From: a bacterium CPR1
GTDB lineage: Bacteria; Vulcanimicrobiota; Xenobia; Xenobiales; QWHO01
Assembly: GCA_021404945.1 (NCBI GenBank)
Contig: QWHO01000015.1
Location: forward strand, 1-57,287
DNA: 57,287 nucleotides
Direction of reading: 5' to 3'
Positions within the stretch are counted from its first letter, which is position 1, and each line of letters starts with the position of its first letter. The position numbers and the translations under genes are program-made. The notes under the pieces were generated by a model. That model was given only the letters and a program-made list of their open reading frames with translations, was not told the DNA's origin and made no database searches. This document shows positions 2,017 through 7,174 of the stretch, one piece after another.

Positions 2017-2301
2017 CTAATCCTCCAGCAATGGCTTCATCAGCCGATAGCCCACGAACCCCGCCAGGCCAAGCCCGACGAGCACCATTGCCGGAGTGAG
2101 GAGTCGGGTCTGATACTGCTCGTCGAGCCAGTGTCCGAGCAGGTAACTGCCGTACATCAGCGCCACCACAGTAAACCCCAGCGAGAAGACCAGCGCCATT
2201 CCGCGCCCCAGAGTCAGGTCCCCCTTTCGGGGCTCCTTGAACTCGCGAATCCTCTGCTCGACTTCCTCGAGCGATCGGGTCGGCTTCTCGGAGTCGCTCA
2301 C
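2017..2301 (-). CDS. atpZ: AtpZ/AtpI family F0F1-ATPase accessory protein
   Basis: The 94-residue protein has a charged N-terminal segment rich in Glu, Arg and Lys (about residues 1-30) followed by two transmembrane helices. The helix pair matches the PF09527-type pattern ([12 protein letters not shown], then a second helix ending [11 protein letters not shown]). Members of this family are encoded at the head of atp operons and have been linked to Mg2+/Ca2+ transport or c-ring assembly. The GTG start overlaps the stop of the broken wecB by four bases (GTGA), so the operon probably begins upstream at wecA. Confidence 0.75.
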
Positions 2302-3397
2302 GGAAGCTGGGCCGCAACTGCCGAGCCCGAGGTCGCGTGCACGAAGTCGGGCGGGCGGTCGGGAAGCAATCCGAAGCGGTGCAAGATAGCCTGAACGATC
2401 CGCTGAGAAGCCAGTCCATCTCCGTAAGGGTTCGCCACCTGGCTCATCCGCCGGTACTCCTCCGGGTCTTCGAGCAACCGTGAGGCATGCTCCACGATGA
2501 GCGCAGGGTCGGTTCCCACCAGACGGGCGACGCCAGCTTCGATTCCCTCCGGGCGTTCAGTGGTCCGTCGAAGAACCAGCACCGGCTTCCCAAGAGCGGG
2601 AGCCTCTTCCTGAATCCCCCCGGAGTCGGTCAGGATAAGGGTTGACTCTCTCATCAACCGGAGCAGGACCGGGTAGTCGACCGGTTCCAGCAGGTAGGTC
2701 GAACGGTGTTTGTGAACTTTTTCACGAGCGTTCGCAGGGCCTCACAAATCTCCTGCATCGGCTTGCCGAGATTTTCGCGGCGGTGCGTTTCGACCAGCAA
2801 AATGCGGCTCCCCGCTGGAGGATCGACCAGCTCGCTCGGCAATCCGGCAGGTGTGTCGGCCAGAATCTGGTGCAATGCATCAATCACGGTATTCCCGGTC
2901 AGGTAAACATTCTCAGGGTCGACGTGCTCGCTGAGCAGCAGGTCGCGCGAGAGGCGGGTGGGTGGGAACTGCAGCTCGCTCAGGGTCGTCAAGAGACGCC
3001 GGTTGATCTCCTCCGGGAACGGGTCGTAACGGCTGTCGGTGCGGAGCCCCGCTTCCACGTGGGCGACCGGAATTTTGTGGTAAAAGGCCGCCAGGCCAGC
3101 CGCAAAGGCGGTGCTCGTGTCCCCCTGAACCAGAACCAGGTCTGGCTCATGCTGCTTGAGCACGTTCTCCAGCCCTTCCAGGGCTCGGATGGTGATGCCC
3201 GACAGGGTCTGGCCGGGCTGCATGATGTTCAGGTCGACGTCAGGTGCGATGCCGAAAAGCCGCATCACCTGGTCGAGCATCTCGCGGTGCTGTCCGGTGA
3301 CCACGTTGGTGACGCGCACTCGCGGGTCGGCCGTCAGAGCGCGCACGACCGGGGCCATTTTGATCGCCTCCGGGCGCGTCCCGAACACTGTCATCAC
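2298..3397 (-). pseudogene. wecB: UDP-N-acetylglucosamine 2-epimerase, frameshifted with internal loss
   Basis: The N-terminal part (about 3397 to 2700) is a clear non-hydrolysing UDP-GlcNAc 2-epimerase: VMTVFGTRPEAIKMAPV, TGQHREMLDQV, VQGDTST, HVEAGLRT, ETHRRENLG. The C-terminal part (about 2690 to 2298) continues in another frame with [24 protein letters not shown] and NPYGDG. At the junction around 2690-2720 the first frame runs into a stop. The usual segment between the two parts, including the conserved PVHxNP motif, is missing, so roughly 50-65 bases seem deleted. It could be a real pseudogene or an assembly gap. The likely start is GTG 3397 or ATG 3394, eight to eleven bases after wecA. 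An intact enzyme would make UDP-ManNAc for surface glycans. Confidence 0.75.
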
Positions 3398-3404
3398 CCG
3401 AATT

Positions 3405-4373
3405 TTATTTGGCGGCGTAGGCAATGGCGAGTCCGGCCAGACCAAAAAGAATGTTGATGAAGTAGATCCACATCACGGCCTGGCGCTGGGACAACCCCAG
3501 TCCGAGCAGTCGATGGTGCAGGTGCCCCTTGTCTGGTTGAAAGATGGGGCGCCGCGCCAGGCTGCGACGGACGATCGCAAACGAGGTGTCCAGGATGGGC
3601 ACCCCGAGAATGCACACCGGGATGGCCAGCGCAAAGGCGGCCGTGACCTTGAGGGTCCCGATGACGGAAAAACCGGCGAACATCAGCCCGAAGAAGAGGC
3701 TGCCCGTATCGCCAAGAAAAATTTGAGCGGGGTTGAAATTGTAGCGCAGGAAGCCCAGGGCGCAGCCGGCAATGGTGGCCATCATCAGCACGGTGACCCA
3801 CTGGCCCTGTCCGCTGGCGCTGGCGACGACGGCGAAGATGACCGCCGAGATGAGGGAAACACCTGAAAGAAGGCCGTCAAGTCCGTCGAGCAGGTTGATG
3901 GCGTTGGTGATGCCCACGATCCAGAACATGGTCAATCCGATGGCCTGCCAGGGCTCGAGGAAGATCAATCCGTGGAACGGAATCGACAGATAGTCGATGC
4001 GGATCCCGAAGGAGATCATGGTGCAGGCCACCAGGATCTGCAGAAAAAGCTTGACGGTGGCCTTCATGCCGAAGCGGTCGTCGACCATGCCGACGGCCAC
4101 GATCATGGATCCCCCGATGAGCATGCCCAGCAGAAGATTGATCATCCGGTCGGTCAGGCTCTCTCGCAGCGGCCAGAGCACCAGGGCCATGGCTCCCACG
4201 CAGGCCAGAAAAACACCCAGCCCACCCCAGAGTGGGATGGGCACTTTATGCACTTTGCGCGGGTCGGGCTTGTCCATGGCGCCGGCTCGGCGAGCCAGGG
4301 CCTGGACCGCGGGGGTCAGCGCCAGAGTGAGCACAAAACCAAGCCCGAATGCCCAAACATAGGGAGCCGTCAT
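3405..4373 (-). CDS. wecA: WecA/TagO-type undecaprenyl-phosphate GlcNAc-1-phosphate transferase
   Basis: This integral membrane enzyme transfers a sugar-1-phosphate from a UDP-sugar to undecaprenyl phosphate, the first lipid-linked step of surface polysaccharide synthesis. The 322 residues contain about ten hydrophobic segments and the family motifs: the Asp-Asp pair in VGMVDDRFG (residues 98-99), NAINLLDGLDGL (157-168), GDTGSLF (221-227) and the cytoplasmic HLHHRL motif near residue 284. The ATG is at 4371-4373. It precedes wecB, and the pair sits upstream of the atp genes, an order also known in Firmicutes. WecA and MraY share fold and motifs; HLHHR and the neighbouring wecB favour WecA/TagO. 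Confidence 0.88.
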   Translation of the reverse strand: MTAPYVWAFGLGFVLTLALTPAVQALARRAGAMDKPDPRKVHKVPIPLWGGLGVFLACVGAMALVLWPLRESLTDRMINLLLGMLIGGSMIVAVGMVDDRFGMKATVKLFLQILVACTMISFGIRIDYLSIPFHGLIFLEPWQAIGLTMFWIVGITNAINLLDGLDGLLSGVSLISAVIFAVVASASGQGQWVTVLMMATIAGCALGFLRYNFNPAQIFLGDTGSLFFGLMFAGFSVIGTLKVTAAFALAIPVCILGVPILDTSFAIVRRSLARRPIFQPDKGHLHHRLLGLGLSQRQAVMWIYFINILFGLAGLAIAYAAK

Positions 4374-4417
4374 ACTCCGACCTCCGGCCCTAATCTAGCA
4401 TACCTGACCATGGGCGT

Positions 4418-5047
4418 CTACTCCTCATTATGGTCGGTCGCGAGCGCGTCCCACGAGGTGGGAGCGTCGGTTCGGGGACGCTCGCTGGCGCTCGTCTCGG
4501 GGAGACTGGTCTCTACTCCACCGCTGGAGGCGATCTTCACCCGATTGCTGCCCTCGCTCTTGGCCCAGAGCAAAGCTCCTCGGGCCGCCTCCACCAGGGT
4601 GGGCGGCTCCAGGCCGTTTTCGGGAAAAATGGCCACCCCAACGTTGAGCGCTACTCGGAAGCGGTCGCTCTTGAGCCCCTCGGCGGCGGGCGCGCCCGGC
4701 ACCTGGCCCAGGAACCAGTGGCGCTCGACGCGGCTGCGCAGTCTCTCGCCGGCAATCAGCGCCCCTTCGCGCCCGGTTTCGGGCAGGAAAGCGAGAAAGA
4801 CCTCTCCATCAAAACGGGAGGCCAGATCGACGTTGCGCAGGGTGGAGATCACGATGGGGCCGAGTTGCTTGAACAGGGTGTAGCCCATGGACCAGCGCAC
4901 GTCCACGTCGGGGTGGAAGTAGGCGTAGTCGAGCTCGAGGGCCAGCACCGACAGGGGACGCCGATAGCGGGCGCAGCGCTTCACCTCGAGGTCGAGTTGC
5001 TCGAGGAAGTACTTCTTTTGGTAGAGCCCGGTCAGTTTGTCCAGCAA
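4418..5047 (-). CDS. Degenerate GGDEF-domain protein, in frame with the upstream kinase
   Basis: The protein begins with a canonical GGDEF start (LDKLTGLYQKKYFLEQL) and keeps the metal-binding-type Asp at about residue 40 (LALELDY). The signature loop is DGEVF at residues 80-84 instead of GGDEF/GGEEF. The first Gly and the second acidic residue are lost, so diguanylate cyclase activity is doubtful. No ATG or GTG start exists: TTG at 5047 has an AGGGGG sequence nine bases upstream. The frame stays open for 35 codons back to the TGA that ends the Ser/Thr kinase, so the two may once have been, or still be, one protein. Confidence 0.72.
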   Translation of the reverse strand: MLDKLTGLYQKKYFLEQLDLEVKRCARYRRPLSVLALELDYAYFHPDVDVRWSMGYTLFKQLGPIVISTLRNVDLASRFDGEVFLAFLPETGREGALIAGERLRSRVERHWFLGQVPGAPAAEGLKSDRFRVALNVGVAIFPENGLEPPTLVEAARGALLWAKSEGSNRVKIASSGGVETSLPETSASERPRTDAPTSWDALATDHNEE

Positions 5048-5152
5048 GAGTTGTAACCCCCTGAGAGCGGGAAGCCAAAAATTCAGCGACGCCAGGAGCG
5101 GTCGAAGGTCAGTTCGTAAGAATTGAATTTTTTCCTGCCCGCCCCCGGGGGA

Positions 5153-6442
5153 TCAGCCCATGATCCAGTTGGAGTTCTTGAAGTTCTCGTAGTTGTCCAC
5201 GAAGGTTGCGATCAGGCTGCGCACCTGGCTCTCGGCCTGATCCGACAGCGGATTGACCCCACCCAGGCGTTGAGGGCTCAGGATGCCCTGCTTTTCCAGG
5301 AAGGCGATCTCCCCGGTATCGGGGTCCTTGATGACCTGAAGCTCGAATTCGGTGGGACAGGCCAGCGTGAACTGCAAGAGCTCCAGGTTCTTGGGGATGT
5401 GTGGGGTGTGGCATTCATTGCGATAACGCTGGATCAGCTCTTGCAGCAGCGGGTCGAGCACCTCGGTCTTGAGCCGATGGGCTGCGGCTTCGAAGTCCTG
5501 GCCCGGGTCGACTCCCGGCAGGTAGACCTGAATGTTGGCCAGGTTGCGCAGTCGCTCGGCGAAGTCCTCGGCGCAGACGATGCGGTCTTCGGGCCAGGTG
5601 CCCAACGAGTCGTAGATGATGCGGGCCAACTCGGCGTCAACCTGCACGCCCAGGTCTTCGAAAGCTGGAAAATCGAAGTCTTGCGGCTTGCGGCCGCTCA
5701 AGAGCTCGTGCATGGTGGCCCCCAGCGCGTAGAGATCCGAGCTCGGCTCGGGTTGGTTGGCCTGCTGCTCAGCCGGAGCGTAGCCCGGTGTGCCGATCCA
5801 GAACCCCTCGCCCGGGCCGGTCACGCGGGCGATCCCGAAATCGATCAGGCGCACCCGATCGTCTCTGCCCAGCAGAATGTTCGAGGGCTTGATGTCGCGG
5901 TGGGTGACGGGGGGCTCTTGCCCGTGGGCGTAGATCAGGGCATCGAGCACCTGCAGGGCCCAGGTCACCACCCGGTGGGCGTCAAGTCCCGGGGAGCCCT
6001 GCTCCTTGAGCACCTGGCCCAGATCCACGCCCTCGATGAACTCCATTACGAAGAAGAACGAGTTCTCGTGGATGAACTGGGCTGTGATGCGGGGAATGTT
6101 GGGATGCCGCAGGGCCTGCATGACCTGGATCTCGGAGATGAATCGGTCCCGGGCGGCCAGGCGCTCGGCCGGGTCGCTGTTGAGGTCGGTCATCTCCTTG
6201 AGGGCGAAGGTGCGGTCGTTGAGCAGGCGGTCGGAGACTTCATAGACGGCGCCCATGCCCCCGGCCTTGATCAAGCGCACAACCTTGAAGCGCCCATCGA
6301 GCAACGTGCCGCTGGCCAGACGCTCCTTGCCCGACGACCGCTTGGGGGTCGACGGCTGGGGAGCCTCCTCGCGCGTGAAGGCTTTGTGCAGGGCCTCGTC
6401 GTTTGGATCGTAGTCGCTCACGGCTCTGTTGGAGAATACCAC
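5153..6442 (-). CDS. Cytosolic eukaryotic-type Ser/Thr protein kinase
   Basis: The kinase domain spans about residues 50-310: Gly-rich loop KAGGMGAVYEV, lysine in FALKEM (Lys82), catalytic HRDIKPSN (Asp183), DFG (Asp201) and APAEQ. All catalytic residues are present, so it is probably active. The remaining 120 residues contain no transmembrane segment and show no recognised domain. The reading frame opens at GTG 6442; GTG 6421 (VSDYDPND) is an equally plausible start. The TGA stop at 5153-5155 is followed in the same frame by the degenerate GGDEF protein. Confidence 0.9.
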   Translation of the reverse strand: MVFSNRAVSDYDPNDEALHKAFTREEAPQPSTPKRSSGKERLASGTLLDGRFKVVRLIKAGGMGAVYEVSDRLLNDRTFALKEMTDLNSDPAERLAARDRFISEIQVMQALRHPNIPRITAQFIHENSFFFVMEFIEGVDLGQVLKEQGSPGLDAHRVVTWALQVLDALIYAHGQEPPVTHRDIKPSNILLGRDDRVRLIDFGIARVTGPGEGFWIGTPGYAPAEQQANQPEPSSDLYALGATMHELLSGRKPQDFDFPAFEDLGVQVDAELARIIYDSLGTWPEDRIVCAEDFAERLRNLANIQVYLPGVDPGQDFEAAAHRLKTEVLDPLLQELIQRYRNECHTPHIPKNLELLQFTLACPTEFELQVIKDPDTGEIAFLEKQGILSPQRLGGVNPLSDQAESQVRSLIATFVDNYENFKNSNWIMG

Positions 6443-6481
6443 GGAAGGTCAACCCGGACCACGGGGGGAACCGGCCCAAGC

Positions 6482-7174
6482 ATGGAGCGCAAAGTGGCGC
6501 TGGTAACCGGGGCTGGAGTGCGACTGGGGCAGGCCGTGGCTGCCGCTCTGGCCCGCGAGGGCTACGACCTGCTGCTGCACGTGCATCGCTCCGAGCCGGA
6601 GGCGCTGGCAGGGCGAGTGGAGACAGTCCGGGCCGACTTGAGCCGACGTGAGGGTGTGCGGGAGCTGGTCCAGGAGGCCCTCACGCGATTTGGCCGGCTG
6701 GACCTGCTGGTCAACAACGCGGCCCTGTTCTGGCCCAGCCCTTTGGAGCGGGCCCTGGACGACTGGGATCGCTTCCGCGGGCTCAACCTGGAGGCTCCCC
6801 TGGGCCTGGCGGTGGGCCTGGCTCCGCGCCTGCGCGCCTCGGGCGGCGCCATCATCAACCTGGCCGACATCTATGGCGAGCGCCCCCTCAAGGGCCATCT
6901 TCCCTATTGCCTGAGCAAGGCGGGAGTGATCATGCTGACCCGCTGTCTGGCCCTGGAGCTGGCTCCCGAGGTGCGCTGCAACGCGGTGTCGCCCGGGGCC
7001 GCCCTGCCCCCGGCCGAGTCCGATCCCGAGCATGAGCGCCGCCTGGTCGAGAAGATCCCCCTCGCTCGTCTGGGGGGGGCCGAGGCGGTCGCCCGGGCGG
7101 TGGTCTTCCTGGCCCGGGCCGAGTTCGTGACAGGCCAGGTTCTGCAGGTGGATGGGGGGCGCACGCTGGTTTGA
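6482..7174 (+). CDS. Short-chain dehydrogenase, pteridine reductase-like
   Basis: This 230-residue Rossmann-fold oxidoreductase has the N-terminal pattern TGAGVRLG, which matches the TGxxxRLG motif of pteridine reductases (PTR1/FolM) rather than the usual TGxxxGIG. NNAA is at about residues 78-81. YCLSK (Tyr142, Lys146) forms the catalytic pair. The catalytic Ser is replaced in LADIYG, where an Asp follows as in pteridine reductases. Its stop overlaps the TTG start of folK (TTGA), so a folate or pterin substrate, for example dihydromonapterin or dihydrofolate reduction, is a reasonable inference. The ATG at 6482 follows directly after the divergent kinase gene. Confidence 0.8.
   Translation: MERKVALVTGAGVRLGQAVAAALAREGYDLLLHVHRSEPEALAGRVETVRADLSRREGVRELVQEALTRFGRLDLLVNNAALFWPSPLERALDDWDRFRGLNLEAPLGLAVGLAPRLRASGGAIINLADIYGERPLKGHLPYCLSKAGVIMLTRCLALELAPEVRCNAVSPGAALPPAESDPEHERRLVEKIPLARLGGAEAVARAVVFLARAEFVTGQVLQVDGGRTLV

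Follow-up and report, generated by a model that had tools for sequence, protein, structure and literature searches.

The closest described systems to the locus analysed here are two degenerate GGDEF proteins and a family of Ser/Thr kinases. PopA of Caulobacter crescentus is a degenerate-GGDEF effector of c-di-GMP, a response regulator required for targeting CtrA for degradation (PMC12564702). CdgI of Escherichia coli is a degenerate GGDEF protein that has an intact I-site and binds c-di-GMP (PMC5635695). Ser/Thr kinases of the PknB/Stk1 type, identified by the model NF033483, carry PASTA repeats.

We describe a degenerate GGDEF protein from bacterium CPR1 (Vulcanimicrobiota; contig QWHO01000015.1, assembly GCA_021404945.1), in a stretch of 57,287 nucleotides that we call the window. 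It shares with PopA the loss of the catalytic motif and the retention of the RxxD inhibitory site; PopA is a response regulator, whereas the window protein stands alone and adjoins a Ser/Thr kinase (PMC12564702). With CdgI it shares a degenerate catalytic site together with an intact inhibitory site; CdgI has an N-terminal domain common to DgcT and DgcX, whereas the window protein has, beyond its GGDEF domain, only a C-terminal tail that is modelled at low confidence (PMC5635695). The window kinase resembles the PknB/Stk1 type in that its kinase domain matches NF033483, and differs in that a C-terminal domain specific to its family takes the place of PASTA repeats. In the open-licence PMC literature we found no paper on a degenerate GGDEF protein paired with a Ser/Thr kinase.

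A preliminary description of the window, drawing on the open frame that joins the two coding regions, offered three readings: a kinase-GGDEF fusion interrupted through either a recent nonsense change or a sequencing error, read-through of the intervening TGA, or a restart of translation at TTG 5047. We find that these are very probably two neighbouring, separate genes, the second encoding a catalytically dead GGDEF protein.

Sequences and searches

The GGDEF protein was searched for in 38 genomes, yielding 30 loci, of which 15 besides the window (L002-L016) have a kinase relative upstream. Profile searches covered 149 genomes of the phylum. The nearest relatives compared belong to the same order. 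All features given below lie on the minus strand.

The kinase gene

The Ser/Thr protein kinase gene occupies 5153..6442; its product matches Pfam Pkinase (E 1.9e-35), carries kinase motifs and has a C-terminus that aligns with those of its relatives. The coding frame runs from 6442 to 5156 and is closed by TGA 5155-5153, with GTG 6442 and GTG 6421 as candidate starts, between which the choice is uncertain. The motifs HRDIKPSN, DFG and GTPGYAPAEQ are all present, and we take them to mark an active kinase. NF033483, used here as the test for PASTA Ser/Thr kinases (Stk1/PknB), matches residues 45-256 with 155.2 bits, below its curated cut-off of 450, and a Pfam search of the kinase gave no PASTA match.

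The last ~115 residues (5156..5515), over which the Pfam search matched no domain, form a domain that serves as a marker of this kinase family; its profile has matches in 24 of the 149 phylum genomes. The structure model (residues 300-429, mean pLDDT 84) predicts a helix, four strands and a helix (alpha-beta4-alpha). Foldseek with the modelled domain returned no match at E 0.001, the best (E 0.31) having another fold than frataxin. VIA placed frataxins at the top (1ekg: Z 9.1, rmsd 3.5 over 101 residues), a weak likeness to frataxin/CyaY because unrelated rows score 8.1-8.5. A comparison with the sequences of solved structures gave a single match, at E 0.65. Scanning contigs with the alignment of this domain found eight loci, labelled Candidatus Eremiobacterota (three), Armatimonadetes (one) and plain bacterium (four); the contig scan with the GGDEF protein as query gave no match.

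Separation of the two genes

The window kinase ends in FKNSNWIMG, and aligned relatives end in FKNSNWGF, FKNANWQIM, FKNANWQLMF and SKGWGVAF; most stop 2-4 residues past the conserved W. The exceptions are L009, with a longer tail, and L010, L011, L014, L015 and L016, which end slightly earlier or are divergent. As judged from this alignment, TGA 5155-5153 is the native kinase stop, at the position where the relatives' kinases end. Its identity varies: over 16 loci the kinase stop is TGA in nine, TAG in five and TAA in two. A one-base frameshift at the TGA would carry the kinase on into another frame, which reads DPPGAGRKKFNSYELTFDRSWRR and then meets a stop. This tail reads plausibly, but most relatives' kinases end just past the W, none of them has such a tail and the longer one of L009 differs, which makes it most improbable.

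In all 16 orthologue loci the GGDEF gene shares the strand of the kinase and lies 3' of it, and in none of these do the two domains share one stop-free frame. Separate stop-to-stop frames for kinase and GGDEF were found in 15/15 loci and also in L011, whose kinase is without the C-terminal domain. Kinase and GGDEF are in the same frame in eight of the 15 (window included), all seven such relatives having an additional in-frame stop ahead of the GGDEF domain; the frames differ in the other seven, and in L011. Between 39 and 816 bases separate the kinase stop from the GGDEF domain, and in L046/L008 an ORF of ~260 codons sits between the two genes. The preliminary description had counted separate proteins, different frames or an intervening gene in relatives against a fusion; all three are found among the relatives. 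It had also proposed looking in homologues for a sense codon in place of the TGA; the genes are separate at 16/16 loci, with stops of all three kinds.

The gap itself (5048..5152, 105 bp) is open in the kinase frame for 35 codons, as first described, and contains no in-frame ATG or GTG; TTG is absent too, and the only potential starts are two CTG. The remaining two frames each contain a stop. If the gap is modelled as a first-order Markov chain, 35 open codons have a probability of 0.54, which multiplied by 1/3 for the frame becomes ~0.18; the open frame is due to chance. GC3 in the gap is 0.57, a non-coding level, versus 0.86 in the kinase gene, 0.83 in the GGDEF gene and 0.80 in the WecA-like gene that follows.

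These results bear on the two readings that would join the genes. A recent break of a fusion at 5155-5153, by nonsense change or sequencing error, would account for the shared frame and its 35 codons free of stops, but none of the 16 loci is fused (the relatives are of the same order, so very recent events lie beyond close comparison), the kinase C-terminus falls at a conserved place and the gap has non-coding GC3; we consider such a break very unlikely. Some read-through of the TGA, giving a minor kinase-GGDEF product, draws on the same frame being open beyond the stop and is hardly credible either, for seven relatives and L011 have the GGDEF in another frame, additional stops intervene in the seven that share the frame, and the identity of the stop is not conserved. 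Fusion, nonsense change and read-through were thus rejected on the 16 loci, as was the frameshifted tail on the relatives' C-termini.

The third reading, a restart at TTG 5047, is favoured. This codon begins M-L-D-K-L, aligned with ATG-L-D-K-L of L002-L006, and TTG is the only start type on offer for the GGDEF gene in L009, L010, L011 and L013. Upstream lies a Shine-Dalgarno-like AGGGGGT (5056..5062), its last G 9 nt from the TTG. The duplex energy with a generic anti-SD is -10.1 kcal/mol. Among 1548 20-mers taken as background, 2.3% equal or better this value, and the WecA-like gene has a similar one (-10.2). The ordinary explanation, initiation at TTG 5047 independently of the kinase gene, is supported. 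A scan of 4300-6600 found no promoter, and the three terminator-like sites in the same region are all outside the kinase-GGDEF gap.

The GGDEF protein

The stand-alone protein of 209 aa (4418..5047) passes as a GGDEF domain by profile (Pfam PF00990: E 2.8e-16, 60.2 bits, cut-off 23.8) and by fold, its model (mean pLDDT 79.7) matching solved GGDEF domains with Foldseek E-values down to 2.2e-15. The loop was read from the start as DGEVF (4796..4810), correctly. The catalytic motif is lost in 16/16 orthologues, where it takes 11 forms, DGEVF in six and ten others once each. For comparison we used 40 paralogues from the same genome set, a sample that leans to the orthologue family because it was hand-picked among the best-scoring matches to the orthologue profile. 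The fourth-position E occurs in 0/16 orthologues versus 31/40 of these paralogues. Both tests for an active diguanylate cyclase fail in every orthologue: GG[DE]EF was found in 0/16 (28/40 paralogues) and NDxxGH, the GTP-binding segment, in 0/16 (30/40 paralogues). Since the catalytic motif is lost and the GGDEF fold is matched, the protein is predicted to be a conserved cyclase domain that has lost catalysis and is not expected to produce c-di-GMP.

RxxD, here RNVD at the inhibitory-site position (4826..4837), has both its residues, R71 and D74, in 16/16 orthologues. The combination found in PopA and CdgI, a dead catalytic motif with RxxD kept, is therefore present at the level of sequence, and the earlier suggestion that the GGDEF acts as a non-cyclase partner agrees with it. 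RxxD is also kept in 40/40 paralogues; finding it conserved is thus usual in these proteins and no specific proof of c-di-GMP binding.

A second family of stand-alone degenerate GGDEF proteins was seen in five f2 genomes (L067, L069, L071, L074 and L076), with the motifs DGEVL, DGEML, DGEIL, DGELL and NGEIL. In two contexts of this family inspected by eye (L103 and L104), no member of the kinase family was recognised alongside.

Distribution and gene neighbourhood

An orthologue of the GGDEF protein is present in 16 of the 149 phylum genomes, window included, at 235-263 bits, scores that are raised by the profile having been built from the same 16 sequences. Next below them come a tandem copy in genome G018 (186 bits) and then matches of at most 151. 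Among the 24 genomes with the kinase, the GGDEF gene is next to it in 15 (window included) and absent from nine; in the 149 genomes no GGDEF orthologue turned up without such a kinase beside it. Because the GGDEF gene is beside the kinase in 16/16 loci and the kinase occurs without it in 9/24 genomes, the GGDEF gene is, from its distribution, a detachable companion module of the kinase. The tandem copy belongs to L013 (G018:C134:1136-2173), where two degenerate GGDEF domains lie in tandem in one open frame 3' of the kinase; the kinase of this locus is split over two frames.

The next gene in the window (3405..4373) encodes a WecA/MraY-like polyprenyl-phosphate GlcNAc-1-P transferase, assigned with NCBIfam ECA_wecA at 131.7 bits (E 3.2e-38), which is under the curated cut-off of 326. 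A WecA-like gene follows the GGDEF gene in 12/16 loci (window, L002-L008, L010, L012, L015 and L016). In L009 a different gene follows, in L013 no WecA-like gene was found within ~1 kb after the GGDEF, and in L011 and L014 the GGDEF is at a contig edge. At kinase loci that have no GGDEF gene the WecA-like gene comes directly after the kinase in 7/9, with other genes in L055 and L062. Genome G002 has a divergent short-chain dehydrogenase, then kinase, WecA-like and WecB-like genes, an order that by eye is like that of the window save for the missing GGDEF.

The window gene at 2298..3445, which from its sequence we take to be a wecB-like UDP-GlcNAc 2-epimerase, is broken: ~26 codons found in L032-L035 are absent near 2696-2705, and the frame shifts there. 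Either the deletion is genuine or the assembly is wrong at this point.

Proposed function

The kinase and GGDEF genes are probably co-transcribed as one unit. Translation of the kinase would end at its native TGA, and AGGGGGT would bring ribosomes to TTG 5047 for an independent start of the GGDEF protein. In the most likely mechanism, the dead GGDEF domain would bind c-di-GMP at its RxxD site and relay the signal either to the adjacent kinase, by presumed contact, or to the WecA-type product of the next gene, a presumed target; the outcome would be a tuning of polyprenyl-linked sugar transfer.

By analogy with PopA and CdgI, binding of c-di-GMP at RxxD would be the most likely function, and we put the chances of the protein being a c-di-GMP effector at about even. 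A different role for the second of the two genes, less than probable though to be taken seriously, is that of an adaptor working through protein-protein contacts only, with the kinase or with another GGDEF protein, and not binding c-di-GMP. In E. coli, degenerate GGDEF domains directly contact other GGDEF proteins (PMC5635695), and RxxD by itself is not discriminating, being found in 40/40 paralogues; against the adaptor, RxxD was retained in 16/16 orthologues, whose catalytic motif has meanwhile diverged into 11 forms. To return to the c-di-GMP effector, direct control of the kinase by the GGDEF protein is possible but rather doubtful. Most speculative, and on balance unlikely, is a lineage-specific module in which the dead GGDEF, loaded with c-di-GMP, would serve as a subunit of a Ser/Thr kinase that has a C-terminal docking domain of its own, so that c-di-GMP would act through phosphorylation to control polyprenyl-phosphate GlcNAc transfer.

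What appeared to be a broken fusion is an ordinary gene arrangement, and a false lead is thereby removed. The conserved pair of kinase and pseudo-GGDEF becomes a candidate link from c-di-GMP to Ser/Thr phosphorylation in a little-studied phylum, and the output of the pair may be the synthesis of cell-surface polymers.
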